Virus record (IMG/VR): IMGVR_UViG_3300000115_000083
Span: 1 to 36,470 of that record
Length of the DNA: 36,470 bases
Direction: 5' to 3' (one strand)
Source: a virus
In this document: positions 2,700 through 34,834 of the stretch, piece by piece
Layout: every line of letters starts with the position of its first letter
Position numbering within the stretch: position 1 is the first letter of the stretch
Program-made: the position numbers and the translations under genes
Notes under the pieces: generated by a model
What the model saw: only the letters and a program-made list of their open reading frames with translations
What the model was told of the DNA's origin: nothing
The model's database searches: none

Positions 2700-3113
2700 A
2701 TGACAAAGAAAATAAAAAGAAAATGGATGAGTTTTGTAGAAAAAGGCCAGAAATGGATGATTTGCAAAATTTGTCAATCTGAATATGTTGATGTTGATGA
2801 AGATACAGCTGCAGTTACTTGTTCTGATTGTGTACAACGAAGATGTTTAGCTTCAATGCCAATGGACCAGTTTTTCAAGTCAGTTAAACCTAAAACAGGT
2901 AGACCTCCTGGTTGGCATTTTATGAGTGAGTATGTTGACAAAAAAGGTAATGTGTTTCACAAAGGTAAAGAACAACCTGAATTAAAAGGAACTCTTAAAC
3001 CTACTAAAGTGAAACCACCAAAGAAAAGAAAGAAGTTAACAGCTGATGAAAAGTTATTTAAGAAAGCAGCTGATTATAAAAAAAGATTAAAAGCTAAAAG
3101 GAATAATAAATGA
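2700..3113 (+). CDS. Zinc-ribbon protein with basic C terminus, unknown function
   Basis: A 137-residue protein with a four-Cys zinc-binding pattern: CKIC at about 22-25 and CSDC at 41-44. A middle part reads GRPPGWHFMSEYVDKKGNVF, and a strongly basic C-terminal third has runs of Lys (KPPKKRKKL). The layout suggests a nucleic-acid or RNA-polymerase-binding regulator, but no named family is recognised. AGGTGA stands 6 nt before the ATG. It lies behind a sigma70-like promoter rather than a late-type one, so it is probably expressed early. Its stop overlaps the deformylase start (ATGA). Confidence 0.7.
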   Translation: MTKKIKRKWMSFVEKGQKWMICKICQSEYVDVDEDTAAVTCSDCVQRRCLASMPMDQFFKSVKPKTGRPPGWHFMSEYVDKKGNVFHKGKEQPELKGTLKPTKVKPPKKRKKLTADEKLFKKAADYKKRLKAKRNNK

Positions 3114-3697
3114 TAATAAAAGATAAAAATAAATTAAATACTAAATGTAAAGAAGTTACTGATTTTGACGAAGCAGAAAAAATAGCAGCTGAGTTATTAC
3201 AGACATTGAAAGATTCAAAAACTGGAATAGGATTAGCAGCAAATCAAATAGGTTATGATAAAAGAATTTGTGTTATAAATGTTAAAGAACCACTTGTACT
3301 TATCAATCCAAAAATAATAGATAGGTCTAAAGAAACATTTGTATTTCAAGAAGGATGTTTATCCTTTCCAAACAAACAAGTAAAGACTAATAGAAATGTG
3401 TCTGTATCTGTAGAGTGTGATAATATGGATTCAACATTATTTTTTAATGCTGACTCTAATGATGTAGATGATGCCTTTGAGTGTGCTTGTATACAGCATG
3501 AAATAGACCATCTTGATGGTGTAACAATGTTTGACCGTCAATTAAAAGGTATTACTATAAAGAGACAAGGTAAAAAAATCGGAAGAAATGATAAAGTAAC
3601 TTTAACAAAAGGAACAGAATCTAAAGTATTAAAATACAAAAAGGTTCAACCAATGTTGGAGGATGGATGGACTTTATCAGAACAATCTCAGATTTAA
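3110..3697 (+). CDS. def: Peptide deformylase with C-terminal extension
   Basis: Removes the formyl group from the N-terminal fMet of new proteins. All three family motifs are present: GIGLAANQIG (39-48), EGCLS (81-85; Cys83 metal ligand) and QHEIDH (129-134; two His ligands and catalytic Glu). The core ends near residue 153. About 40 extra residues follow (KKIGRNDKVTLTKG ... DGWTLS), which are not part of ordinary deformylases. Phage deformylases are known from marine phages and are usually trimmed rather than extended. The gene overlaps the zinc-ribbon gene by ATGA and a small membrane gene at its 3' end. Confidence 0.93.
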   Translation: MIIKDKNKLNTKCKEVTDFDEAEKIAAELLQTLKDSKTGIGLAANQIGYDKRICVINVKEPLVLINPKIIDRSKETFVFQEGCLSFPNKQVKTNRNVSVSVECDNMDSTLFFNADSNDVDDAFECACIQHEIDHLDGVTMFDRQLKGITIKRQGKKIGRNDKVTLTKGTESKVLKYKKVQPMLEDGWTLSEQSQI

Positions 3698-3837
3698 TAT
3701 TCTTTTTCCTTTCATTAATATTTGTTTTTATATTGGGTGTATTATTATGTTTCATAATATTATCTCTTATTATCCAAGACAGCTTAATATTTATATATAA
3801 GAGAACTGGAGAATTATTATGGCGAAAGAAACAATGA
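3667..3837 (+). CDS. Small single-span membrane protein overlapping both neighbours
   Basis: A 56-residue frame begins at ATG 3667 inside the deformylase gene, behind a strong GGAGG (3658-3662), and ends at TGA 3835-3837 inside the next gene. The product begins MDFIRTISDLIFFFLSLIF, has a long hydrophobic stretch continuing through VFILGVLLCFIILSLII, and ends in a basic tail (YKRTGELLWRKKQ). That is a clean N-in/C-in or signal-anchor pattern unlikely to arise by chance in a shadow frame. It contains the late-type promoter of the next gene within its coding sequence. Confidence 0.6.
   Translation: MDFIRTISDLIFFFLSLIFVFILGVLLCFIILSLIIQDSLIFIYKRTGELLWRKKQ
3787..3800 (+). promoter_or_regulatory. 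Phage late-type promoter motif
   Basis: ATATTTATATATAA ends 18 nt before ATG 3819, with CTGGAG in between. It lies within the coding sequence of the small membrane gene at 3667. Confidence 0.55.
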
Positions 3838-4176: not shown

Positions 4177-4189
4177 ATATTTATATTAA
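4177..4189 (+). promoter_or_regulatory. Phage late-type promoter motif without a following gene
   Basis: ATATTTATATTAA is identical over 13 bases to the site at 5558 (before phoH). No coding frame follows it; instead the structured stretch 4222-4307 begins about 33 nt downstream. A weak hairpin AAACC-ACT-GGTTT (4151-4163) precedes it. Confidence 0.45.
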
Positions 4190-4221
4190 ATGGTTATAAG
4201 AAAAATTATATGAAGTACACT

Positions 4222-4309
4222 AAATCCACAAATAGAATCAGTCTTTGATTCTGTAAAATCTCGGTTAATACATTTGTTATTATTAATAGAGTTATGTCTG
4301 TGGATTTTT
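4222..4309 (+). ncRNA. Candidate structured RNA (three-way junction)
   Basis: The non-coding gap holds three nested inverted repeats that fit one fold. The outer 9-bp stem is AAATCCACA (4222-4230) with TGTGGATTT (4299-4307). Hairpin 1 is AGAATCA (4234-4240) with TGATTCT (4246-4252) and a 5-base loop. Hairpin 2 is CTC (4260-4262) with GAG (4289-4291), plus TTAATA (4265-4270) with TATTAA (4281-4286). The outer stem runs into T5, so the 3' end looks terminator-like. A late-type promoter motif lies about 35 nt upstream. It is not tRNA-like: there is no T-loop sequence. It may be a free small RNA; a complex terminator is the alternative. Confidence 0.45.
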
Positions 4310-4317
4310 GTACCTTA

Positions 4318-4325
4318 TATAAATA
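4318..4325 (+). promoter_or_regulatory. TATAAATA box (T4 late promoter-like)
   Basis: TATAAATA, the T4 late consensus, lies 46 nt before ATG 4372 in the context ATATAAATAGGT, shared with the site at 1258. It would begin the outer-membrane protein transcript. Confidence 0.5.
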
Positions 4326-4371
4326 GGTAAAACAAAACAACGAGTAAGTTAATAGTTAAGGAGAAAACTAA

Positions 4372-5214
4372 ATGAAGAACCTAAGTATGAAAACTCTAAT
4401 CACCTACTCAATCGCCTTGATGGGATTGTTCGGTATTGTTAGAGCTAACGAAGTAGTTACAGAGACTACACTACCTGTCGTGTCTGTGACTGGTGAATTA
4501 AGCACGGACATTACCTTTGGTGACGCTACAACTTTTATGAGTCCATATACTGGATTAATAATAAGTGGTGACGGATGGGTTGTAAGTACAAATCTAGCGA
4601 ATGATGGCGTTGAAATCGAAGAGGCTAAGTATTCTTGGTCTGTAGTAGATGGAATTACACTAACATTCGGTAGTCAAGCAGAACCATATGGATTAGCGTG
4701 GGGTCTACACAGACCTGCAACTAACTGGTTTGCTTCAACTCCAAGAGAACACACGATTTCAAATGGTGTGGGATTTGGATTGAACAAATGGGGTGTTGGA
4801 GCTGATTTCTTTTATGGTGGTAATGAAGTAGATGCTGATGCTCATTGGGCAACAAGAGTGTCTTATGGAATTACACTTGCTGGATTAGATTCCAAATTCG
4901 GACTATCATTAAATAGTGACGAAGCTCAACTTGTAGATGTTAGTTTAGGCAATAGTCTATTCACTACATCTCTTGAGTATGATTTGTCAAGTGAGGCAGA
5001 TGGTGCATATTGGATGAGAGGTGTTATAACACCACCTCAAGCTCAAGGTGCATTTCTACTTATCGGGTTTAATTCCGATGAAGTTGTGACATATGGAGTT
5101 GGGTATAAATGCTCAGATAGGATGAAAGTCGTATCAGAGTTCACATCTGGAACGGATTCAGATGGAAATGACATAGATAATGACTTTGCTATCAGAGCAA
5201 GTTATTCATTCTAA
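4372..5214 (+). CDS. Phage-encoded outer-membrane beta-barrel (porin-like) protein
   Basis: A 280-aa protein with a signal peptide at the N terminus (basic start, hydrophobic TLITYSIALMGLFGIV, likely cleavage after VRA near residue 25). The rest alternates Gly/aromatic/polar residues in strand-length blocks (YRVSYGITL-like turns such as WATRVSYGITLAGLDSKFGL) and ends in ASYSF. A terminal Phe is the classic outer-membrane insertion signal. It therefore probably goes to the host outer membrane as a porin-like barrel. AAGGAG stands 8 nt upstream. Codon use (CTA, ATC, ACC, GCC) is less AT-biased than in neighbours, hinting at separate origin. Function (receptor masking, permeability, nutrient uptake) is unknown. 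Confidence 0.75.
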   Translation: MKNLSMKTLITYSIALMGLFGIVRANEVVTETTLPVVSVTGELSTDITFGDATTFMSPYTGLIISGDGWVVSTNLANDGVEIEEAKYSWSVVDGITLTFGSQAEPYGLAWGLHRPATNWFASTPREHTISNGVGFGLNKWGVGADFFYGGNEVDADAHWATRVSYGITLAGLDSKFGLSLNSDEAQLVDVSLGNSLFTTSLEYDLSSEADGAYWMRGVITPPQAQGAFLLIGFNSDEVVTYGVGYKCSDRMKVVSEFTSGTDSDGNDIDNDFAIRASYSF

Positions 5215-5241
5215 TAAACAATAAACAACGGAGGATTAACA

Positions 5242-5472
5242 ATGAATGTTAAATCAATTTTCGGAACAATAGGTGATACACTAACAGGTTTATTCGGTGT
5301 ACTAACAGGTCTTGTAGGCGTAGCAATTATGTCTCAAGTAGTGTTTGGTACAGGCTGGATGGGCATGGATGTAGTTGGCAATATTTCAAATATCGTTAAC
5401 ACATTTCTAACTGGTGGTGTAACTGGATTGCTTACATTGATTGTTCTATTTTCATTAATAGACAATAAGTAA
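5242..5472 (+). CDS. Small two-helix membrane protein, holin-like size
   Basis: A 76-residue, Gly-rich hydrophobic protein with two membrane stretches, about 12-38 (TLTGLFGVLTGLVGVAIMSQ) and about 50-73 (LTGGVTGLLTLIVLFSLI). These are separated by a short loop, with a charged end DNK. It follows the barrel gene by 27 nt with GGAGG upstream, and the shared terminator at 5495 makes the two a two-gene unit. Size and topology would fit a holin or inner-membrane partner of the barrel, but no family match is recognised. Codon use resembles the barrel gene (many CTA). Confidence 0.65.
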   Translation: MNVKSIFGTIGDTLTGLFGVLTGLVGVAIMSQVVFGTGWMGMDVVGNISNIVNTFLTGGVTGLLTLIVLFSLIDNK

Positions 5473-5494
5473 GTGATTTAAGTCACAATAAATT

Positions 5495-5524
5495 ATGGGG
5501 TTGCTTCGGTAACCCCATTTTTTT
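5495..5524 (+). terminator. Strong rho-independent terminator with UUCG tetraloop
   Basis: ATGGGGTTGC (5495-5504), TTCG loop (5505-5508), GTAACCCCAT (5509-5518), then a T-run to 5524. The stem is 10 bp with one G-T wobble and an exceptionally stable C(UUCG)G cap. It closes the barrel/membrane-protein cassette. Confidence 0.93.
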
Positions 5525-5557
5525 AAATATTTTTTGATAGATTCCTAAGTATATATT

Positions 5558-5601: not shown

Positions 5602-6468
5602 ATGAGCAAATCGAAAAGTTCTCAAAAAAATAAGGTTTCGTTATCCGAACTAAACAATCACACCACTACGAATAAAAGACAGGCATTAAAAGATTTAAAG
5701 ATGTTAAACTTTAATGAATTAATATACAAGAATACAGCACAAAAAAGATTCTATGAAACTATATCGAAAAAAGATATAACTTTCTGTATCGGTCCTGCAG
5801 GGTGTGGTAAAACATTTTTATCAGTACATAAAGCACTAAGAGAGTTAGGTGATAAACATTCATCAGTTGATGGTATAGTTATTGTCAAACCATTAGTAGA
5901 AGCGGCTGGTGAAAAGATAGGTTTCTTACCTGGTGATGTAGAAGAAAAGACAGCACCATTTATGATGTCGTTCTATTACAATATGGAACAAATAATAGGT
6001 AAACAGAGATTGAATATTTTGAAGGAGAATAGTGTTATTCAAGTAATACCTATGGCATATATGAGAGGTATAACCCTTTCAAATAAATTCGTTATATTAG
6101 ATGAAGCACAGAATGCTACACCTGAACAAATAAAAATGTTTGTAACAAGATTGGGTGAAGGTTCAAAATATATCATCACTGGTGATTTAGCTCAATCTGA
6201 TATTAAACACGGTAAAAGTGGATTAGAAGATGCAGTTAAAAGATTCGCTGGTGTTCACGGAGTAGGTTTAGCTTCTTTTAAAGAAAAAGATATTGTAAGA
6301 CATTCCTTAGTAAGAAGGTTACTTAAAAGATACCACGATAGTTTTCAAATTATGGATGAAGTATCAGCTGAAAAGACAATATCAATGTGGGTCCACGATG
6401 AAGGAATAGACGCACCAACTGATGGTTCATTGGAAACTATAAAAGAATATCGATATAGAGTAAAATAA
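5602..6468 (+). CDS. phoH: PhoH-like P-loop ATPase
   Basis: A 288-aa cytoplasmic ATPase of the PhoH family. Walker A is GPAGCGKT (64-71), Walker B is VILDEAQNA (164-172), and the sensor-like segment TGDLAQSDI lies near 193-201. PhoH domains resemble the ATPase part of superfamily 1 helicases and are often linked to RNA metabolism or phosphate stress; phoH is a widespread marker gene of marine phages. An N-terminal ~45 residues of basic, Ser-rich sequence precede the domain and about 60 residues follow it. ATATAGGAG stands upstream of ATG 5602. Its precise role in infection is not established. Confidence 0.93.
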   Translation: MSKSKSSQKNKVSLSELNNHTTTNKRQALKDLKMLNFNELIYKNTAQKRFYETISKKDITFCIGPAGCGKTFLSVHKALRELGDKHSSVDGIVIVKPLVEAAGEKIGFLPGDVEEKTAPFMMSFYYNMEQIIGKQRLNILKENSVIQVIPMAYMRGITLSNKFVILDEAQNATPEQIKMFVTRLGEGSKYIITGDLAQSDIKHGKSGLEDAVKRFAGVHGVGLASFKEKDIVRHSLVRRLLKRYHDSFQIMDEVSAEKTISMWVHDEGIDAPTDGSLETIKEYRYRVK

Positions 6469-6510: not shown

Positions 6511-6538
6511 AGTTATAATGTATAATGGAGAAAAATAT

Positions 6539-7060
6539 ATGATAAAGACATCTCATGCAACATATGTAGCATTCATACCTATGTTGATGTTAACTTGGTG
6601 GTTTTCTGGATTACTTGATAATCATCACGAAGAAAAAATGAGGTTACAAGAACACATATGGATGTTAGAAGACGATTGTGGATTTACAGAAGCAAACAGA
6701 ATAGCTTTCAATGTCACGGTTACTACATACAATCCAACAAGAGAACAATGTGATTCAACACCTAATATAACAGCTGATGGTACTAAGATTAAAACTTGGA
6801 AAGCAACTGAATATAGATATGTTGCTCTCTCAAGAGACTTATTATCTCGTTGGGGTGGTCCTTTTGATTATGGAGATTATATCATAATAGAAGGTACAGG
6901 TAAATGGGATGGAGTGTATCAAGTACGAGATACAATGAATCCTAAATGGGTTAAAAGAGTAGACATACTTACTACGAATAGTAGATTTAAATATGATAAT
7001 ATTACGATGTATAAGTATGTAAATGAAAATGAGTATCTAATTACTGATACAGGTTTATAA
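6539..7060 (+). CDS. Membrane-anchored 3D-domain protein (double-psi barrel)
   Basis: A 173-aa protein with an N-terminal membrane anchor (about 9-25, VAFIPMLMLTWWFSGLL) and a C-terminal 3D domain named for three conserved Asp. They are visible as Asp80 in ITADGT, Asp131 in VRDTMN and Asp142 in RVDIL, with VTTYNP and VALSRDLL between. The fold is shared with MltA and RlpA, which act on peptidoglycan, so a wall-directed role in the periplasm is likely. The start is placed at ATG 6539 because GGAG (6527-6530) lies 8 nt upstream. The earlier in-frame ATG 6518 falls at the predicted transcription start and would add 7 residues. A place in host lysis is inference. Confidence 0.75.
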   Translation: MIKTSHATYVAFIPMLMLTWWFSGLLDNHHEEKMRLQEHIWMLEDDCGFTEANRIAFNVTVTTYNPTREQCDSTPNITADGTKIKTWKATEYRYVALSRDLLSRWGGPFDYGDYIIIEGTGKWDGVYQVRDTMNPKWVKRVDILTTNSRFKYDNITMYKYVNENEYLITDTGL

Positions 7061-15969: not shown

Positions 15970-18900
15970 ATGGCTGTCCAGTACGAAACACTCAACGAGT
16001 TTAAAGCTTATACAACAAGGATATCAGAATATATTGCTAAAGAATCTTTAGTTAATATACCTGGATTAGTTTCAACAGGCCCTAATTCAAATAATCCATC
16101 ACAACAAGCTGAATTTTTAGACTTTGTAAGTCAATCTGGAGTAAGTCATCTACAATGGTATCACAAAACAATTGCTAATGGTAAAGTAAAAAAACATAGA
16201 AAAAGTAATGAACCTTTAATTGTTTTTAATGATGAAAAATCCAGTAACTTAGAAGATTTAAATGTATTAGAATATATAGCGTATAAATTAGCAGGTGTTG
16301 AACCAGAATTAGGATTGGCTGTTGGATTATTTGGTTTACCGAATCCTAATATACAAGATGGTTCTCAAAACAATTTTCAAGATGCTACCGTAGAAACGGC
16401 TACACAAAATTGGGGTTATGTACCATATGTCTATATAAAAGCTTCATTTAACTATATAATGTTAGCACCTCAACAGATACCAAGTATTGTTGCATCAAAT
16501 TCTAATTATTTTGATGCAGATAGTTTCATCTCAACAATGACTGAACAAGGTTTTATTTTCCAGTTAGATAGTGAGTATGATTTATCAGATAATTTTTCAC
16601 AATTTTTACCTGTCGGTACTAAAAAAAGATATGTTAGTAAACAAGCATTAAGAAATTTTTCTGATACTACTATAACAGAATTGCAACCAGATACTATTCG
16701 AATAAAAATAGATAAATTTTTTGATAGTTGGAATAAAGTAAAAGAATTTATTCCAATCGGATATCAAGCAACAACAGGACAGAATTTTATAGCTAACCCT
16801 TCATTTGGGGGAGGAATAGGTCCTGGAGTATTAACGAGAAATACAGATTTGACTGATAGAGCAGCTTTTCAAGAAGTAGTAACAAGAGAAAATCCAGGGT
16901 TTTCAGATTATGTTTTAAAGCAAGACGGATATCAAGATTCTTTTTATTCAATAAATTTAAGTGCAGGTCCAGATTTTTCTTATGGTGCTGCAACTACATA
17001 TGTTGCATCTTGTTGGGTTTATGCAGACCCAACTTATCAAGGAGTAGATGAAGCATTATTTGATATACAAATGGAACAACCAAACGAACAGACTGGTCAA
17101 AACTCTATTTATAATGCACCCCAAATAATTAATGACATAACGGGTGAAATTATTATTGGAGGATTATGGGCTGACAATCAAGGTAATGTGTGGCGTCAGT
17201 ATAAAAAAGTATTTACTACTCCTTCAGTTTTTTCTGAAGAGGGTAAAATAATTTGGTCACTTGGAAAAAGTTATGCAGCAACAGGTGATACACAACTATA
17301 TGATGCATCAAATAGTAATCCAAATGCGTTTAGGTATATAACTGGATTGCGAATCGAAACAGGTACAGAAGTACAAAATTTAGAAAGACTACAATTAACT
17401 GCAATAAATGAACAATCTATAGCAAGAGTTGCAAAAGATTGTCAATCTTTGTTAAATCCATATGATGTACCATTATTTTCTTTTAATGACTTCGATGATT
17501 TTGTAGAAGGACAAAAAGTATCATCACAAATTGCAGATTTATATGTAGATATAAAAGATGGGTTACTTGAATCGTTAGAATCGATAACAGATAGTTCTTC
17601 AACTGCCTTTAATAATCTTTCTCTACAATTACAAGCAGCTGGCGAAATATCTGGAGATGCAGCAGTCAATATTTCTTCAGCGTTTACAGAAGCAGCTGGT
17701 CAAGTTAGTATTAAAGTGAATGAATTAACATCACAGATATTAGGTTTAAAAAACTCCTTTATAAATAATATTAATATAAATGGAGGTAGTGGTGGTTCTG
17801 GCAACCAAGAACAGAGTCAAGGTCAAGCTGCAAACGGTACATATGCTTATACATCTTACTTAACAAACCCATCTCCGGCAAACAATATACAATTTTCAAA
17901 AAATATGTATACAAGTTGGAATGGTGGATATCCTTTAGCAGTTGGATATGAATCTAATTTTGGTATTTCTGATAATTTTAACAGAAACCCACAAGAAAGA
18001 TTAAATCAAATAGATGGTAATTACGAAATATTACAATCAAATCAAAATTTATGTTTTACTTCAAGACCATTACAAACTTATACAACACAGCAACCTTTAC
18101 CTGTAAAAGAATTTAATCGAATAGTAGCTAGAGGTAATCAACAACAAGGAATTTCTACGGTTGGAATACATAATGGTACGACTGCTATACATCCAATTTT
18201 AAATAATGTTTTTGATGGTACTACTATTACACCTCAACAACCTCCATTTAATTCAACTTTATCACCTATAGGTGGAGATGCTTTATTTCATGCTTTATAT
18301 GGTAATAGTGTTAATGATTATGTAAGTCAAAAAATAATACCTATTACTGCAGAATCTTTTAATCAAAATTCATATATCTTTACTCCTGCAACTTGGAATT
18401 ATTTTCATGGTAATGCTGGGTGGGCAAGTAAAACTTTATTTGAAAATGGTATTATGACAGCAAATTCAGGTGGAGGTTTAGAAAATAATGGTATAGCAAC
18501 AGAACAGGGTAATGGAGCATCATTAATTCCAAACACAAAAGCATATGCAGATTTAGTTTTCAAAAAATGGAATGCTTTAAGAGCTGCAAGAGGATTAGGT
18601 ACTGAAGTGTTAGATAAAGGACACACTTATTTACCGTATTTAGGACCTGATGGTTATTTAGCTCCATCTAATACTGAAACTTATAATGATACATCTTATC
18701 CATATGTAACAGATTCAAGTGTAATCGTTACAACACACGCTTACAAACCAGGCGAGTATATGGATATTAAAGTTAGTTTAACACCAAATGGTAATTTTCC
18801 TAATCCAAGTTATACAGATAAACTAGGAGTATCAAGAGATTTAATAGAATCTTACAATATATTTTTATCTGGTGTTGATAAAAGAAATTATGTAACAAAA

Positions 18901-21777
18901 AATGATACAAATACTGCATTTGGTTTTAAATTTTGGAGAAAAACTTTATTTTGTTATAACGCATATCACAATGGTGAATCAATATTAAATAATGAATTAA
19001 ATATACGAACAGGATTTGAGGTAGAAGATTTTTATCCCGAAGGTACATTAAATAATAATTATCAAGGTGGCCAAGATGGAGGCGGTAATTTATTTACGAA
19101 TATGTGTCCACTCATACCTGGTAGTTATGTAAAAGCAGCAAATGGTGATTTTAATTATTTGAATCAGGGTGGTATAAGATTATTACCTAAACATTTAAGA
19201 CAAAATGTTTTACAAAACGATGGTGGAAATGGTGGTTCTGTAAATGGGGAAGGATTAGAAAATAATAAACATACATTTTTACCATTTTCTCAATATCATT
19301 TACAACCAATGTATGGTGGTCTCTGTGGAGTACCAATTTTAAGAACCGTAAGAACACAAGATTTAACTCAGGCAGAAATAAACGCTGGCGAAACTGCTTA
19401 TAGAATATTTAGATTGAGGGTACAAGCAGATATACCTACAGACCATCCAGTAATGTTTGAAACAAGAGCTGAAGGGGCATCAGATGCCTCACCTGGTATT
19501 TATAATGATTATTTTGGATATTCAGCAACTACACCATATATAAAATATACACAAGAAGGTAATACAAACCTTACATATCGAGAACGAGCAAACATTTATG
19601 ATATTAGATATATGCCTTCTACAAAAAATCCAATATGGAATATTTTATCAAGACAATGGTTAGGTGTATCGAATTTTGGTGTAGATACCGATAACCTTTA
19701 TGGTGACTCTGACAACCCTCACATTTATGAAGAGGGTTATTTACAATTAGCTGGTGGTGGTATGTCATCAATGTGGAATAACTATGGTGGTTTTCAAAAT
19801 GAAAGACAAAATAGTTTACCATTAGAACAATCTACTTTTAAAATAAAATATTTTGGTGCAAATCCTAATGATGTTCAAGATTTAAAAGGGCAATGTGGAG
19901 GCGCAGCCAATTCAACTGCAGGTGGAGATTATTCAGGTGGGTTTGAAATGACTGCTCAAAGAGCTTACTGGAATTCAATCATACAAGGTGCACCCAATAC
20001 TTCAAATAATCCAGATAATGTAAACTTGTTGTTAGAAGCATACACACAATATTCAGCTGATAATTATCCAAATGGTGAATCACCGTTTTTTGATAATGGT
20101 GCTGCTTTACAATTATCTTATGACCAAACATTTATGGACGAGATTGGTGATGTGTATGACCCATATAATGCTAACAATAATATAACATTACATTCTGGTG
20201 ATGACTTTGGTTTTGCAATGAATATGATATTTGCTTCTACACCGGTTTTTTGTGATTTTGACCAATCATTTGAAAGACCATTAATATTAGCAGAAAATAA
20301 TTATCCTACTTTAACTATTGATGAGTTTTTATTAAATGAATCTTTTGAGGGACATGCTAACTTCAATACTGGTTTTGTATTTAGAAATAATCGGTTTTCG
20401 ACAGGTGATTTTTTATCAGCTGGTCAAGAATATGATTATGGACAATTAGATGGTTCTCACATTTTAAGTGTAGATGAACACCCATCAGAATTAATTGTAA
20501 ATTGTGAATTTTCTATAGTACCAATGCTACCTTGTCAACAGGGTAGTGATATTGATTGGATAGGATATACACCTTTCGGTAAACCGATAAAAGGAGATGA
20601 AGTGTATGGAAGTTGGACTGGTGTAGATTATACATCAGGTTTACAGGAATCAACTACTAATGGATTACCAGACATTGTAAGTTTTAAAACATCAGTTCAA
20701 TATAGTGGAGCACCTTTTTCAGATGAACACTTCCAAGATATAGGTGTTGCTGATAGATTTGGAAATATTTCTTCTCCTTTTTATGATTGGACAAGTTGGC
20801 CTTTTCATAATAACTTAGGTAATTCTACTACAGGTGCTGGAAGAAATAGATTTTTAGATTTAAGAACGGTTGTTCCAGGTACTGGATGGATATATAATGC
20901 TTTACTGGATTCTGATATTGGTGGAGCTGTTTATCAAGGTGCTAACCCAATTCGTTTTGATGGCCATGGTCAGTTCAATACTGGTGACTCTCCTCACGAT
21001 ATTGTAGCAGCAGGAGCAGTTGGTGGTTTTTCAAAACCTCAGAGTGCAAAAACTACTCCATTAAGTAATGGTTCACTCGGGGCTAGTAGACAAAATGGTG
21101 CAACTTGTCATAGAGCAGGTGAGCTAGCAGTTTTATCTACATTTAATATATTACAATCTCAAGCTGTACCAGGTTATCATACTATACCACCTAATTTAGA
21201 TTTTGTCAATGGTATGGGTGGTGCTTATGTTGGTTCAAATACATTCATTTCTAACGCTACAATGTTTGATGATGATTTTCAAACCAATCTCCAAGGTGAT
21301 AATTATTTAGGGGATTTTGGTGATTTACTTGTCAGTAATAATTATCCAGCACCATATGGTACTTGGAAATTGACTTATGATTTAGAAAGAGCAGTATCTT
21401 TTGGTGTGTTATGTGATTTATATCCTTTTGACCCTATTGGGGGAGAAATGACACCTATGTATAGAAGAATACATAATCAAGTTTTATGGAGATATAATTG
21501 GTACGGTTGTGGATTAATAGCTCCATTTTGGAGATATAAAAGTAATTTTGTTGTTGATGATGAGCATTATAACTCTTCTGGTTTACAAGGAAGTATAGAT
21601 GGATTGATTGAATATGGTCAAGAAGGTCAAGGTGGTGGTACCGGTGGTGGAACTGGTGGTGGTGCTGGTGGCCAAGGACAACAATCTTCTAATACTGCTC
21701 CAAACAATCAAATGTGGGGTTGGTCTAAAGAGAGTGATGCTGATGGTAATAGTCCATATGACCAGGCTGCTCAATAA
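15970..21777 (+). CDS. Giant (1935-aa) baseplate/tail structural protein
   Basis: Starts MAVQYETLNEFKAYTTRISEY. Residues 1-270 look like a conserved anchoring region. About 271-467 resemble a carbohydrate-binding-module-like jelly roll (FIANPSFGGG, YVASCWVYAD, WRQYKKVFTT, FRYITGLRIETG). About 510-597 are helical (ESLESITDSSS, SQILGLKNSF). A Gly/Gln-rich linker follows (about 605-620). About 620-1880 is a long Asn/Tyr/Gly-rich beta region. The end is another Gly linker (about 1886-1905, GGGTGGGTGGGAGG) and a short tail SPYDQAAQ. It may replace T4 gp7, or it is a giant fibre; position in the baseplate operon favours a wedge-attached role. Surface-exposed, glycan-binding use is inference. Confidence 0.6.
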   Translation: MAVQYETLNEFKAYTTRISEYIAKESLVNIPGLVSTGPNSNNPSQQAEFLDFVSQSGVSHLQWYHKTIANGKVKKHRKSNEPLIVFNDEKSSNLEDLNVLEYIAYKLAGVEPELGLAVGLFGLPNPNIQDGSQNNFQDATVETATQNWGYVPYVYIKASFNYIMLAPQQIPSIVASNSNYFDADSFISTMTEQGFIFQLDSEYDLSDNFSQFLPVGTKKRYVSKQALRNFSDTTITELQPDTIRIKIDKFFDSWNKVKEFIPIGYQATTGQNFIANPSFGGGIGPGVLTRNTDLTDRAAFQEVVTRENPGFSDYVLKQDGYQDSFYSINLSAGPDFSYGAATTYVASCWVYADPTYQGVDEALFDIQMEQPNEQTGQNSIYNAPQIINDITGEIIIGGLWADNQGNVWRQYKKVFTTPSVFSEEGKIIWSLGKSYAATGDTQLYDASNSNPNAFRYITGLRIETGTEVQNLERLQLTAINEQSIARVAKDCQSLLNPYDVPLFSFNDFDDFVEGQKVSSQIADLYVDIKDGLLESLESITDSSSTAFNNLSLQLQAAGEISGDAAVNISSAFTEAAGQVSIKVNELTSQILGLKNSFINNININGGSGGSGNQEQSQGQAANGTYAYTSYLTNPSPANNIQFSKNMYTSWNGGYPLAVGYESNFGISDNFNRNPQERLNQIDGNYEILQSNQNLCFTSRPLQTYTTQQPLPVKEFNRIVARGNQQQGISTVGIHNGTTAIHPILNNVFDGTTITPQQPPFNSTLSPIGGDALFHALYGNSVNDYVSQKIIPITAESFNQNSYIFTPATWNYFHGNAGWASKTLFENGIMTANSGGGLENNGIATEQGNGASLIPNTKAYADLVFKKWNALRAARGLGTEVLDKGHTYLPYLGPDGYLAPSNTETYNDTSYPYVTDSSVIVTTHAYKPGEYMDIKVSLTPNGNFPNPSYTDKLGVSRDLIESYNIFLSGVDKRNYVTKNDTNTAFGFKFWRKTLFCYNAYHNGESILNNELNIRTGFEVEDFYPEGTLNNNYQGGQDGGGNLFTNMCPLIPGSYVKAANGDFNYLNQGGIRLLPKHLRQNVLQNDGGNGGSVNGEGLENNKHTFLPFSQYHLQPMYGGLCGVPILRTVRTQDLTQAEINAGETAYRIFRLRVQADIPTDHPVMFETRAEGASDASPGIYNDYFGYSATTPYIKYTQEGNTNLTYRERANIYDIRYMPSTKNPIWNILSRQWLGVSNFGVDTDNLYGDSDNPHIYEEGYLQLAGGGMSSMWNNYGGFQNERQNSLPLEQSTFKIKYFGANPNDVQDLKGQCGGAANSTAGGDYSGGFEMTAQRAYWNSIIQGAPNTSNNPDNVNLLLEAYTQYSADNYPNGESPFFDNGAALQLSYDQTFMDEIGDVYDPYNANNNITLHSGDDFGFAMNMIFASTPVFCDFDQSFERPLILAENNYPTLTIDEFLLNESFEGHANFNTGFVFRNNRFSTGDFLSAGQEYDYGQLDGSHILSVDEHPSELIVNCEFSIVPMLPCQQGSDIDWIGYTPFGKPIKGDEVYGSWTGVDYTSGLQESTTNGLPDIVSFKTSVQYSGAPFSDEHFQDIGVADRFGNISSPFYDWTSWPFHNNLGNSTTGAGRNRFLDLRTVVPGTGWIYNALLDSDIGGAVYQGANPIRFDGHGQFNTGDSPHDIVAAGAVGGFSKPQSAKTTPLSNGSLGASRQNGATCHRAGELAVLSTFNILQSQAVPGYHTIPPNLDFVNGMGGAYVGSNTFISNATMFDDDFQTNLQGDNYLGDFGDLLVSNNYPAPYGTWKLTYDLERAVSFGVLCDLYPFDPIGGEMTPMYRRIHNQVLWRYNWYGCGLIAPFWRYKSNFVVDDEHYNSSGLQGSIDGLIEYGQEGQGGGTGGGTGGGAGGQGQQSSNTAPNNQMWGWSKESDADGNSPYDQAAQ

Positions 21778-29860: not shown

Positions 29861-32800
29861 ATGAACAAAGAATTACATTGGAATGGGTTGGATTATGGTG
29901 AGATTGTAGAAATTGGATACACTACTGCCGACACAATGTATTATCCTGGTGATGACCGGAGCACCACCCCACACTCTCCATTTAATAACCCATCCTCTAC
30001 ATTTGAAAATACAACATATAATGTTAACGGCCGTTACATGCGTGCGCTTGGTGTTATGCAGGAATACAGATGGGCAGATAGAATTGAAGTTTGTTTAGCA
30101 TCCCCCGGGCAAAGATATTCAGCCGGCTCATATGCACAAAGTATTGCACATCCACTTGGAGATAATCCAAATCCAATAACATCTCTTGGCCCATTACATA
30201 GTGGTAATGATGCAGCCCAAAATACATCAGTTGATTGTTTACAAAACATTGGTTCTTGGAATCAAGTCTGTACTTGGCGTACAAAACCAGAAGTGATACA
30301 AATGTATAATTATCATCAATTATTAAGAGGAGTCCATCAAACTCAAATCTCCGCACAACCACAATATGGTTTAACTCTTCCAAACATTAATGATGATTTT
30401 ATTCATACTCCAAGCTACGCTTGGTGGGTATATGTTAGTAGCCGATGGAAAGTAATAGCAAGACAAGGTGTTACTAATAATAACAATGCACCTGAGTTTG
30501 GTTTTGTACCACCTATGATTCCATATATAAAAACAAGAATTTCTCCAGAAAAAATTTTCGGACCTATAGATACACCTTGGTGGAAATTTGGTGGCCAGTT
30601 CACTTCACCTGATATTGGTATTGATGATACATATGATATGAATTTAGATAAATTTCAACCAGTAGAATTATACTTCACAGGAGTTACTAATTTGCATAGT
30701 AGTTTGAACGACCAAGGTTCAACTCAAAATATACCTGATGATATTCAATTACTTCAAGAATATTATGATGCTATTACCAGTATTAATAATGGAGTTCCAG
30801 GAGGTGGTCAATATGATAGTATTATACATCCTCTAATAGAAGCTGGATTACAAGCATTTCAGCCAATTTATCCATTTATATCACCTGGTAGTACTCAGAT
30901 GTCAGATTACTTTCATCAACATCCTCCAGGACCAGATTTAACCTATGTTATATCAGACTATATTAACGAAGGTACTCCTTTTTATAATTTGTTTAATGCA
31001 GAACTAGGAGGGACTGGTACAGAATTAAATAATCCCGATTATGCATTACCAGGAACATTTATAGCTCAATTTGCAAATAGTCTACAAGGTAATCAAACTA
31101 TTCGATTACCACATGCAACATTTGCAATAGGTCCATATGGACCAAAAATCCAATCAGGAATATCTGTTTTACCAAGACAATTCAATCCACCACAAGATGG
31201 TATACTTAATACTACTGGAAATATAATGGCACAAAATGGATGGTTACCTGGTGATACAGGAGAAGCTATAAATTCATCTTATCAAGATTTAATGCCATAC
31301 ACATTTACTGAAAATACACCTGAATCAGCATTACTAATACAAACTTATTTAGCAAATTTTTATGCAAGACATACAGCAGGTAGACATGCAATATTAGGAA
31401 TGCAACCACTTTACTATTCATTAGATGAATTTTTTATACAAGATTATGATTTAATGGGACTTTATCAATACGACACTACAACAGGATTACCAATTAATCA
31501 CAACTCTACAACCTATACCGGGAATATATCAAATTATTTATTAATGTTGCAGAATCCGGAAACATATGAACTCACAATTGAAAATTGGACTAAATTATAT
31601 GTTATGTACAAAAGGTATAAAGCTACAAACCCAAGTGATAATGATTGGCCAAATAATATTACAAATTTAAACTCTCCATTAAGTGCAGTTGATATGCATG
31701 CTATTTATCCAGAATGGCCTCACATTGTTGAAGGACCAGGTGGAGGAACAGGAGCTGCAGCTGAATTTGCAGCTACTGCGTGGAATAAAGCTAATTTAAG
31801 AGGTTCTTTTGCACCTCTTGGACCGCCTGCACCTGCAGGTTATGTGCCAAAATGTGGTGTTAATTATCCACAATATCTAGGTATACCGTTTAATGTATCT
31901 CCTGATACAAATACTACGACACCAAATGATGGTGGTTATCCTTTTAATTTTCAATGTGGTATAAACTTTAATGCTGAAAATGCAGACACACTTACAGGTT
32001 ATATGACGGCTCTTGATTATATCATACCTTACGGTGATGATATACCATTAGAATTAAGTGACTTATTTAATTCATATTCAAACACACCAAATGGTATAGA
32101 GGGGTGTGAAAATCAAGCACATCTCATATATGAATTTTTAGATAAAGAATTATGGAAATATTTTTATACGATGCATCAAGCAGTGAAAAAGTTTGTAGAT
32201 TCAGAAAACACACTTGGTGATGATTATGTTTTTTATCCAAATCTAATTCCTCAAAATTTGATAATGAATACTTTAGAATTAACTAATAGAGAAAAAGAAT
32301 TAGTAGCATATGCAAGAACATTAGATATTGGAATGGCATCTACAAATACTTCATATCAAGATTTTATACAACAAACGGTAAATCAATGGAATCCATTTTT
32401 AGATAATCCGGGTGGTAATGGTGGTATGCCTCAAATTATACAATATGGTTTTTTAGATAATATTCGAAATAAATTAATACAATTAACTTTAAATCAGGGC
32501 GGGATAGCTCAATGGGAAATAAATAATTTTCTTTATTGGGTACTTAGTAATGGTTCAACCGTTTTCCCTCCAGGAGGGTTAGGAGGTGGGTTACCGGCCC
32601 CTACACCTATAGACAACGATTTTAGTATGTATGATGATGATACTGAATTAGGAACATTTGTAACAGCACCATTTATGATGGGGCAAGAATTACAACCTGG
32701 ACCTAATGAAATTATGTATACAGGTCCACATTTTCCTGGTTCAACAGCTGGGTATTGGCAAGTTTGTGCTTATCTTAATGAACATTTTCCTAATGGTAAT

Positions 32801-34834
32801 GTTTTATCTGTATCAAAAATTAGTAATGTTTCTAACCCAACTACCTATAACTATGCTAATGCTTTAGTTTATGCTACACAACCATTTCTCACACCGGAAG
32901 GTAATATAGAAACTAATACAGGTTGGTATCCTTCTCAATATTTAAGTGGAGAATCATTTTCAACTACAGACCATAATATTCTTTCAAATACTCCAGGTTT
33001 AAATCATCAAATTTTAGTTCAAGTAGCAGACACACAACCTCCATTTATGACTGATGTTTTTGGTATAACACCTGAAGAAGAATGGCCTTCAACTTATTTC
33101 CATGGTAATGTAACAATTGCTCAAATGATTCAAGAACTACAACTTGCTGGATACGATGGTCCAACTTTAGATGCTTATCCAACAACAGCTGATAGTGGTG
33201 GGACTGAGGCTGGAAACGGAATTATTAATCAATTAGATGGGTTAACGATATTTGCTCAAACAGGTGATTATCGACCATATCAATTTATTAAATGGTGTGA
33301 AATAACTGGATTAGAAAGTTTAATACAGACTTATTTTCCTATAGGAGAACCTATAGGTAGTGGTGAAAACATTTATCCAGGAAATTTTGATATTCCTGGC
33401 TTACCACCTCTGTTTTATATATCACCTAATGCAATAAGAAGTATAGGGGAATACAATAAGACAGAGTTAGAATATGAATCCCGTTTTAATGGACCTTTTA
33501 AAGGTAAACATTTGTTAGGGGGTAATGCACAATCATCATCAAATACTAATCAAAGGATAAATTCAAGATATGATGAACACGAAACACCAAGACCACACCG
33601 TGGTTTACATACAGAAAATATCACTCAAGCTGGTAAATTTTCTAACGCTATGGATAGTTCAAATTATATAAATGGACAACAATATGGTCCTGGTAGTACT
33701 ATATTATTAGGTAATCAAATTTTTACACAAAGTTTAGCACAAAGTAATGATGCATATGGTTTTCGTATTATGAATGGAGACCCTGATGAGGTTGGAGCAC
33801 AACCCGTGTTTACGGTAGCATATGGTAACATCCATGGTTCCGGTTCATTAAAACAATCTAATTCAGCATCACCTTCAGAGGCAGTTTATAAACAATATGC
33901 TTCTATTCTAAGAAATCTTGAAGTGAGTGGGAGTTTTTATTCCTTATCTGGTTCAATATCTTATCCTGGTTTTGAAAACAACGATATAGTTACAGGTCAA
34001 AGTTTTGCAAAACCAGATGCTAATGTATTTATTATAGCTGCAAACAAAGAAGTAGTAGGTGATAAACTTAGTGATAAATTTATACTTAAATTAGAAGGTA
34101 AAAATTCTAATGGTCATGCAAATACATTACATTTGACGAGTGATTTTGAGCATCCTGTATATGAATCAGGTACTGGATTAAAAAGATTAACCATCGTTTC
34201 AGGTTCTTGGAAACCATCTGCTGTTGGTAGCAGTCCAGCTATTGATAATGTAGTTGGTAGTAGTTTACATACACTTGCAACTCATAGAAGATTTGGTTAT
34301 TTTTATCCTGAAGTTGGTATTTGGATTTTAAATCCTGCTGTAGGTAATCAGGTATTAGGTGGTATCCCAGGAGAAGTAGGTAGTAATGTACAAGTTGCAT
34401 TTAATGATTCAACACAAAGAAATAATGGTTTAGCACCTCATGGAAAATCGAAGTCTGATAAAGAATATAACAATGCGTTACTTCTTGCAAATTGTATGAG
34501 AAATAGAGGTGATAAAATCACAATGCAAATTAATACTGAAACTGAAGAAATTCATAAAGGTATAATAGTAAAAGTACCAGCTGATGCATTAAACTATTCA
34601 TTAAATCCTAGTAGACTAATAGGTTATAACGAAGAGGGTGAATTTAATAATTTTGGAAATTCAATGACAGAAGGTGGGGGTGAAGATGCAAAAGGTAGTG
34701 CAACAACATACCCAAACCAAATACAATTATACAATGCTACAGGATATTTAGTTGCTGTAGCAAATTTCAGTAAAGCTATAAGAAAAGATTTCAATAAAGA
34801 ATTAGTTATAAAAGTAGTTCTACCAGTAGGATAA
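29861..34834 (+). CDS. Giant (1657-aa) adhesin-like virion protein with C-terminal anchor module
   Basis: About residues 1-1250 are unlike the neighbours: Pro/Asn/Gly/Tyr-rich (TPHSPFNNPSSTF, PWWKFGGQF, LPPLFYIS) with occasional helical stretches (TLELTNREKELVAYARTL). About 1255-1657 are the module shared with the 444-aa protein (IFTQSLAQSND, EAVYKQYAS, HRRFGYFYPEVGI, GYLVAVANFSKAIRKDF). The arrangement suggests a conserved virion-binding part carrying a large variable region that could reach the host surface. Codon use near 29940-30190 is less AT-biased than elsewhere (sites such as CCCGGG and GCCGGC). AGAGGATAA-type ribosome site precedes ATG 29861. Receptor binding is inferred. Confidence 0.6.
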   Translation: MNKELHWNGLDYGEIVEIGYTTADTMYYPGDDRSTTPHSPFNNPSSTFENTTYNVNGRYMRALGVMQEYRWADRIEVCLASPGQRYSAGSYAQSIAHPLGDNPNPITSLGPLHSGNDAAQNTSVDCLQNIGSWNQVCTWRTKPEVIQMYNYHQLLRGVHQTQISAQPQYGLTLPNINDDFIHTPSYAWWVYVSSRWKVIARQGVTNNNNAPEFGFVPPMIPYIKTRISPEKIFGPIDTPWWKFGGQFTSPDIGIDDTYDMNLDKFQPVELYFTGVTNLHSSLNDQGSTQNIPDDIQLLQEYYDAITSINNGVPGGGQYDSIIHPLIEAGLQAFQPIYPFISPGSTQMSDYFHQHPPGPDLTYVISDYINEGTPFYNLFNAELGGTGTELNNPDYALPGTFIAQFANSLQGNQTIRLPHATFAIGPYGPKIQSGISVLPRQFNPPQDGILNTTGNIMAQNGWLPGDTGEAINSSYQDLMPYTFTENTPESALLIQTYLANFYARHTAGRHAILGMQPLYYSLDEFFIQDYDLMGLYQYDTTTGLPINHNSTTYTGNISNYLLMLQNPETYELTIENWTKLYVMYKRYKATNPSDNDWPNNITNLNSPLSAVDMHAIYPEWPHIVEGPGGGTGAAAEFAATAWNKANLRGSFAPLGPPAPAGYVPKCGVNYPQYLGIPFNVSPDTNTTTPNDGGYPFNFQCGINFNAENADTLTGYMTALDYIIPYGDDIPLELSDLFNSYSNTPNGIEGCENQAHLIYEFLDKELWKYFYTMHQAVKKFVDSENTLGDDYVFYPNLIPQNLIMNTLELTNREKELVAYARTLDIGMASTNTSYQDFIQQTVNQWNPFLDNPGGNGGMPQIIQYGFLDNIRNKLIQLTLNQGGIAQWEINNFLYWVLSNGSTVFPPGGLGGGLPAPTPIDNDFSMYDDDTELGTFVTAPFMMGQELQPGPNEIMYTGPHFPGSTAGYWQVCAYLNEHFPNGNVLSVSKISNVSNPTTYNYANALVYATQPFLTPEGNIETNTGWYPSQYLSGESFSTTDHNILSNTPGLNHQILVQVADTQPPFMTDVFGITPEEEWPSTYFHGNVTIAQMIQELQLAGYDGPTLDAYPTTADSGGTEAGNGIINQLDGLTIFAQTGDYRPYQFIKWCEITGLESLIQTYFPIGEPIGSGENIYPGNFDIPGLPPLFYISPNAIRSIGEYNKTELEYESRFNGPFKGKHLLGGNAQSSSNTNQRINSRYDEHETPRPHRGLHTENITQAGKFSNAMDSSNYINGQQYGPGSTILLGNQIFTQSLAQSNDAYGFRIMNGDPDEVGAQPVFTVAYGNIHGSGSLKQSNSASPSEAVYKQYASILRNLEVSGSFYSLSGSISYPGFENNDIVTGQSFAKPDANVFIIAANKEVVGDKLSDKFILKLEGKNSNGHANTLHLTSDFEHPVYESGTGLKRLTIVSGSWKPSAVGSSPAIDNVVGSSLHTLATHRRFGYFYPEVGIWILNPAVGNQVLGGIPGEVGSNVQVAFNDSTQRNNGLAPHGKSKSDKEYNNALLLANCMRNRGDKITMQINTETEEIHKGIIVKVPADALNYSLNPSRLIGYNEEGEFNNFGNSMTEGGGEDAKGSATTYPNQIQLYNATGYLVAVANFSKAIRKDFNKELVIKVVLPVG

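Follow-up and report, generated by a model that had tools for sequence, protein, structure and literature searches.

Results

Layout of the locus

The window, as we call the whole stretch of 36,470 bases analyzed here, is a viral fragment in which a gene for a predicted porin is followed by one for a small membrane protein, hereafter the hairpin (Table 1). A sequence-only reading had described ORFs of 280 and 76 aa, a signal peptide and an ASYSF C-terminus on the first product, and a UUCG-capped terminator, and all of these were found in the sequence as stated. The same reading treated the two genes as one unit, and their adjacency is indeed kept across viral contigs; a comparable hairpin and T-run lie 3′ of the pair in most of the relatives whose downstream sequences were compared. 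Its view that codon use is less AT-biased in both genes held. GC and GC3 are 0.400 and 0.261 in the porin gene and 0.355 and 0.237 in the hairpin gene, above those of most neighbors (mostly ~0.25–0.35 and 0.10–0.22, respectively), but such values also occur elsewhere within the window. The unit had further been called inserted, which did not stand: close relatives carry both genes at the same location, so the raised GC does not point to a recent insertion, and recent horizontal insertion was ruled out as a reading of the base composition. Upstream of the unit, a small hydrophobic ORF (56 aa, 3667–3837) has homologues at the same location in several relatives.

The baseplate-wedge gene and its neighbors share ~33–40% identity with Flavobacterium phage immuto (Immutovirus) and Microcystis phage Mel-JY01, and the gene order of this region is common to the window and immuto. 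We place the window phage among T4-like phages, as a relative of Immutovirus; from the similarity to immuto together with the family of the hairpin, we infer a Flavobacteriales-type host. A PhoH gene (5602–6468) neighbors the unit. The product encoded at 6518–7060 is, judging by its motifs, a probable cell-wall hydrolase; it has no match in Pfam. Its relatives are encoded by phages of Bacteroidota and of Thermus, and two of these relatives overlap with an annotated “transglycosylase” (E 0.3–0.4). Elsewhere in the window, a 276-aa protease-like protein (1816–2646; PHROG 9683 protease, E 7e-8) is conserved in the cluster, and two very large ORFs, at 15970–21777 (1935 aa) and 29861–34834 (1657 aa), probably encode tail or fiber proteins, the former matching no PHROG and the latter no Pfam family.

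Table 1. Features of the porin–hairpin unit and its surroundings in the window
Feature	Position	Strand	Description
TATTTATA element	4178..4185	+	Probable late-class phage promoter core, ~190 nt 5′ of the porin gene
Leader, ~185 nt	4186..4371	+	Conserved hairpin GAATCA...TGATTC (~4234–4251) and conserved GGTTAATA block (from alignment)
TATAAATA box	4318..4325	+	Named by the sequence-only reading; probably a chance match
Porin gene	4372..5214	+	280 aa; signal peptide, 16 predicted strands, L3-position loop at residues 104–128, C-terminal Phe
Hairpin gene	5242..5472	+	76 aa; two-helix membrane protein, a-type, of a chromosomal Flavobacteriales a/b family
Intrinsic terminator	~5499–5525	+	UUCG loop (ggggttgcTTCGgtaacccc and T-run), from sequence
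Gene for membrane-anchored protein	6518..7060	+	3D-domain-like motifs (motif reading); outside the unit

Promoter element and leader

The upstream TATTTATA element favors gaps between genes. Five of its 12 copies in the window are intergenic, against 3.9% of bases, and in G003, a 168-kb relative, the figure is 19 of 35 copies against 4.8% of bases, where other 8-mers of equal composition reach only up to 15%. Its position is common to the aligned leaders (n = 17). Because copies in G003 precede tail genes (those behind the copies at 151586 and 153563 we take to encode tail sheath and tail tube), we regard the element as late-class, and the copy at 4178 is likely the late element of the porin–hairpin unit. 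The T4-type late promoter that had been proposed at the TATAAATA box was rejected on copy counts, with 11 exact copies on the plus strand against 8.2 expected, nearly all of them intragenic; nor is the box conserved at the aligned position in relatives.

The leader is conserved in a set made up of the window, L002–L022, L041–L043, and L061. Its 6-bp hairpin has changed on both sides at five of the six pairs with pairing kept, a level that none of 500 shuffles reached, and an Rfam search of the window gave no match. Phage tmRNA genes lie just 5′ of the porin unit in L004 (3700–4045), L022 (5302–5648), and L013 (5341–5641), with GNEYQYMAVA, GNEYQYMAAA, and DNYNTQIAYA as the tags of this set; in L035, a short, apparently deleted tmRNA match (2911–3108) is followed by tRNA-Ala.

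The porin

The first protein had been read as an outer-membrane barrel, and structure modeling agrees. An AF2 model built with 23 relatives (pLDDT 74, pTM 0.63) predicts a compact general porin fold with 16 antiparallel strands that would close the barrel, and the best of many Foldseek matches in the PDB were V. cholerae OmpT/OmpU (E 7e-10 to 1e-8) and the R. blastica porin (1e-7), with TM up to 0.65. It shares with these porins the predicted fold and number of strands, a C-terminal Phe, and a long loop that joins strands 5 and 6; it differs in having no detectable sequence homology to them, in being encoded by a phage, and in size, being shorter when mature (~255 residues) than the R. blastica chain (289 residues). 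The loop that follows strand 5 (residues 104–128, PYGLAWGLHRP...) is the longest and best conserved of the protein, with the invariant residues clustering at 97–127, and in the model it occupies the position of the L3 constriction loop of general porins. Because pLDDT is below 50 at residues 105–113, we say only that this loop may fold inward.

Sequence comparisons gave little. The porin has no match in Pfam, PHROG, or NCBIfam; Porin_O_P (PF07396), which does not match the window porin itself, weakly matches 7/23 members at a best E of 0.023, below the Pfam cut-off, and the best viral structure match (BFVD) is named a phosphate-selective porin. Neither the porin nor the hairpin has a significant phage relative in INPHARED. 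No porin relative was found in genome contigs (A3 patterns) or in the 246 genomes of the Flavobacteriales order (0/246); this search for a host origin had no positive control and could have missed a distant source.

The hairpin protein and its chromosomal family

The second protein was modeled as the two-helix membrane hairpin that had been expected from its sequence, with predicted helices at residues 3–35 and 44–74 (AF2, pLDDT 81). Foldseek returned just two matches, meaningless at E 8–9, and chaperone and stress families gave none. What the sequence-only reading had missed is that this protein has a chromosomal family in Flavobacteriales, and that the barrel beside it is exchangeable and dispensable.

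In one Flavobacteriales order, 62 of 246 sampled genomes match the hairpin, with E down to 3e-23, and nearly all of these hold exactly two copies, mostly <100 nt apart and in many cases convergent with polA; at the level of the taxonomic family, 8/10 genomes match. A sample of the phylum (296 genomes) gave a convincing match only in the MAG behind L094, a member of that order, where two tandem homologues lie on a contig that also carries polA and metabolic genes, along with two marginal matches inside larger ORFs. No family assignment was found for this tandem membrane pair beside polA. A tree of 52 sequences (74 columns) splits host-a from host-b with support 95/95. The barrel-adjacent phage copies, the window hairpin included, form two clades on the host-a side, although support is not firm for host sequences lying between these clades. 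On the host-b side stand L072 and the additional copies found in L006, L041, L048, and G003. The window hairpin scores 62 bits against the host-a profile and 25 against host-b. By these sequence comparisons, it is assigned to the chromosomal a/b family as a homologue.

The tandem a-plus-b arrangement is absent from the phage unit, where “a” stands with the barrel only, and some phages have a second, b-like copy elsewhere in the genome. Such copies were noted in L006 (8674–8883), L041 (8634–8843), L048 (11063–11275), and L107 (15503–15718), directly 3′ of the 3D-motif protein or 3′ of a phosphohydrolase-like gene. Since the host a/b distribution is wide and syntenic, capture of “a” by phages from their hosts is the simplest reading.

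Recurrence of the pair with a second barrel

A search for the two genes side by side in other marine phages had been suggested, and the pair recurs. Porin and hairpin genes are adjacent in 30/30 viral contigs where this is visible (the window included), despite differing neighbors and with an intergenic gap of ~24–33 nt; these are the contigs that hold the porin end and continue, 26 with a complete or nearly complete porin and 4 with the C-terminal part only. In the clade of L017 and L036, for example, the pair has other neighbors, and PhoH does not adjoin it.

In a wider search, distant homologues of the hairpin (33–39% identity) appeared behind another protein with a signal peptide, 136 aa long and weakly similar to OMP_b-brl. 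Using this small barrel as a query raised the number of contigs carrying it to 20, and the hairpin lies directly downstream in 19/20, the exception being L094. Homology of the two barrel families was not detected: a profile comparison gave a short chance alignment with a probability of 3.8. Sequence searches of the porin, the small barrel, and the hairpin against solved structures gave nothing credible.

The hairpin also occurs without a barrel, in L061, L068–71, and L072–76, and L035 records a natural deletion, with a 41-codon porin remnant (signal peptide, MKNRMKNLVVVLSLIAGIYGIT...) ahead of an intact hairpin gene. As the a-type gene stands behind two different barrels, and the barrel has been lost in L035 and L061, the hairpin is the constant element and the barrel the exchangeable and dispensable one. 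Thus, going by gene context and predicted structure, phages pair an a-type protein with either of two seemingly unrelated barrels, and the retention of the hairpin with a different pore in related viruses makes the pairing a repeated viral strategy.

Complementary arms of 9–12 nt (ATTAGAGAG... or GAGAGCATT...), with differing extensions, flank the 136-aa barrel gene and were found in the leader and gap of L063, L065, L080, L082, L083, L087, L089, and L093. Each lies within the shuffled range except that of L093, but they recur, and long-range mRNA pairing is possible. No such long-range complement spans the porin gene.

Discussion

Possible functions of the pair

The function that we tentatively favor for the pair is late envelope permeabilization linked to lysis. 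Late in infection, the phage would produce an outer-membrane pore and supply the inner membrane with additional “a” subunit. This protein would join or displace the host a/b assembly and make the inner membrane permeable, the barrel would increase the permeability of the outer membrane, and both would prepare the envelope for lysis, or help time it, together with wall-hydrolase or holin genes close by. The proposal asks for no specific barrel, which could therefore be exchanged and sometimes lost. Strict adjacency to unrelated barrels (30/30 for the porin, 19/20 for the small barrel) may hint at such a role, as might the late-class element upstream, the deletion in L035 that spares the hairpin, and the neighboring lysis genes. 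Among the last, a holin-like gene of 55–57 aa (PHROG 34682 “holin,” E 3e-4 to 9e-4) lies 3′ of the hairpin in L017–L020, L036, and L037, and in the porin clade the probable 3D-motif wall hydrolase lies one gene beyond the pair, downstream of PhoH. Hairpin family members lie directly 3′ of the 3D-motif protein in L006 and L041, the L072 copy is two genes after a Phage_lysozyme gene, and the L092 copy is near an endolysin.

The comparison with holins is divided. The hairpin is like class II holins and pinholin S21 in size, in its two hydrophobic helices (as modeled, within a short protein), and in having both ends probably cytoplasmic, and lysis genes lie near it in several contexts. It differs from them in its chromosomal tandem relatives and in having no evident SAR-type helix or dual start, and no holin family, class II included, matches the hairpin proteins. 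Other points also tell against a part in lysis. No lysis gene is in view beside the chromosomal a/b pair, syntenic next to polA, and none was seen beside the pair in several small-barrel phages. The muramidase-like gene of the near-complete relative G003, at 154152, is ~106 kb from the pair, and rupture of the outer membrane at lysis is not a known activity of porins.

A more doubtful alternative is exclusion of superinfecting phages or masking of the receptor. The barrel would occupy or replace a surface receptor and the hairpin would stop incoming DNA at the inner membrane, which would prevent both secondary infection and the binding of progeny to debris. Barrels do swap between phages, and the porin loops modeled as external (residues 50–59 and 150–157) differ in length around a conserved core. 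In its small size and two-helix layout the hairpin resembles T4 Imm, likewise an inner-membrane protein from a T4-like phage; it differs in having a partner barrel and a late-class promoter, and has no established homology to Imm. For the outer membrane, Llp of T5 offers a precedent as a phage exclusion protein with an envelope role, whose use against adsorption to lysed fragments has been described, although it is a lipoprotein that binds the receptor FhuA and not a porin (PMC9586334). Early expression is usual for exclusion proteins (PMC9586334), but our unit has the element class of tail genes. The origin of the hairpin, too, is a chromosomal pair of general kind and no immunity family.

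Nutrient or ion uptake is an unlikely function. Here the porin would open the outer membrane, and the hairpin, as an inner-membrane channel subunit, would boost uptake for virion synthesis in nutrient-poor water. The modeled diffusion-type fold with its L3-position loop would suit this role, as would the weak Porin_O_P resemblance, the name of the top viral structure match, and the PhoH neighbor. That neighbor is not constant, however, as the L017/L036 clade shows; the a/b family has no known transport function; and the other class of barrel is an OMP_b-brl-like protein of just 136 aa, a kind of barrel that is often not a diffusion pore. Still less probably, the host a/b pair would support membrane or outer-membrane-protein homeostasis, and phage “a” would serve as a helper for tolerating late overproduction of barrel and virion proteins. 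The housekeeping-like conservation of a/b in its order and family is in keeping with this, as is the retention of “a” by phages even after barrel loss; the lack of any chaperone or stress family match and of a barrel gene adjoining the host pair speaks against it. It is highly improbable that either protein, or the two together, forms part of the virion: the late-class element would allow it, but the porin has a signal peptide, a barrel model, and a C-terminal Phe, and the unit has its own terminator and is not located among the structural genes.

Relation to known systems and significance

Outer-membrane proteins encoded singly by phages, phage barrels, and small two-helix phage membrane proteins are already known. 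The Lc porin of PA-2 and Lom of lambda are phage-encoded outer-membrane proteins, and BFVD holds further phage genes for outer-membrane barrels. The present unit differs from all of these in that the barrel almost always precedes a host-family membrane protein and comes in two exchangeable types. Homology to Lom, Ail, or OmpX was not found for the 280-aa protein, which matches no Pfam or PHROG family and has 16 predicted strands, not 8. In the literature searched, mostly outside subscription journals, we found no constant host-family hairpin with exchangeable barrels, and nothing on point about phage-encoded porins. We file the pair under phage envelope-modifying genes, as a variant with a constant hairpin and a swapped barrel.

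On more than one occasion, phages of marine Flavobacteriales may have taken over one subunit of an inner-membrane pair that is conserved in their hosts and joined it to outer-membrane barrels that can replace one another. We put this forward with reserve as a two-membrane module that would open or remodel both membranes late in infection, an undescribed form of envelope takeover. A constant inner-membrane partner with a swapped barrel implies that the two membranes are acted on in concert, and it opens this cooperation to genetic study. For phages of Bacteroidota, whose lysis and exclusion systems are poorly known, the pair is a new candidate. Attention is drawn as well to the chromosomal a/b pair of small-genome marine Flavobacteriales as something worth acquiring for phages, and knowledge of the phage pair would bear on the host pair too. 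Tandem membrane proteins of 69–83 aa lie beside polA in many small-genome Flavobacteriales (L104, 1599–2138; L114–L133).
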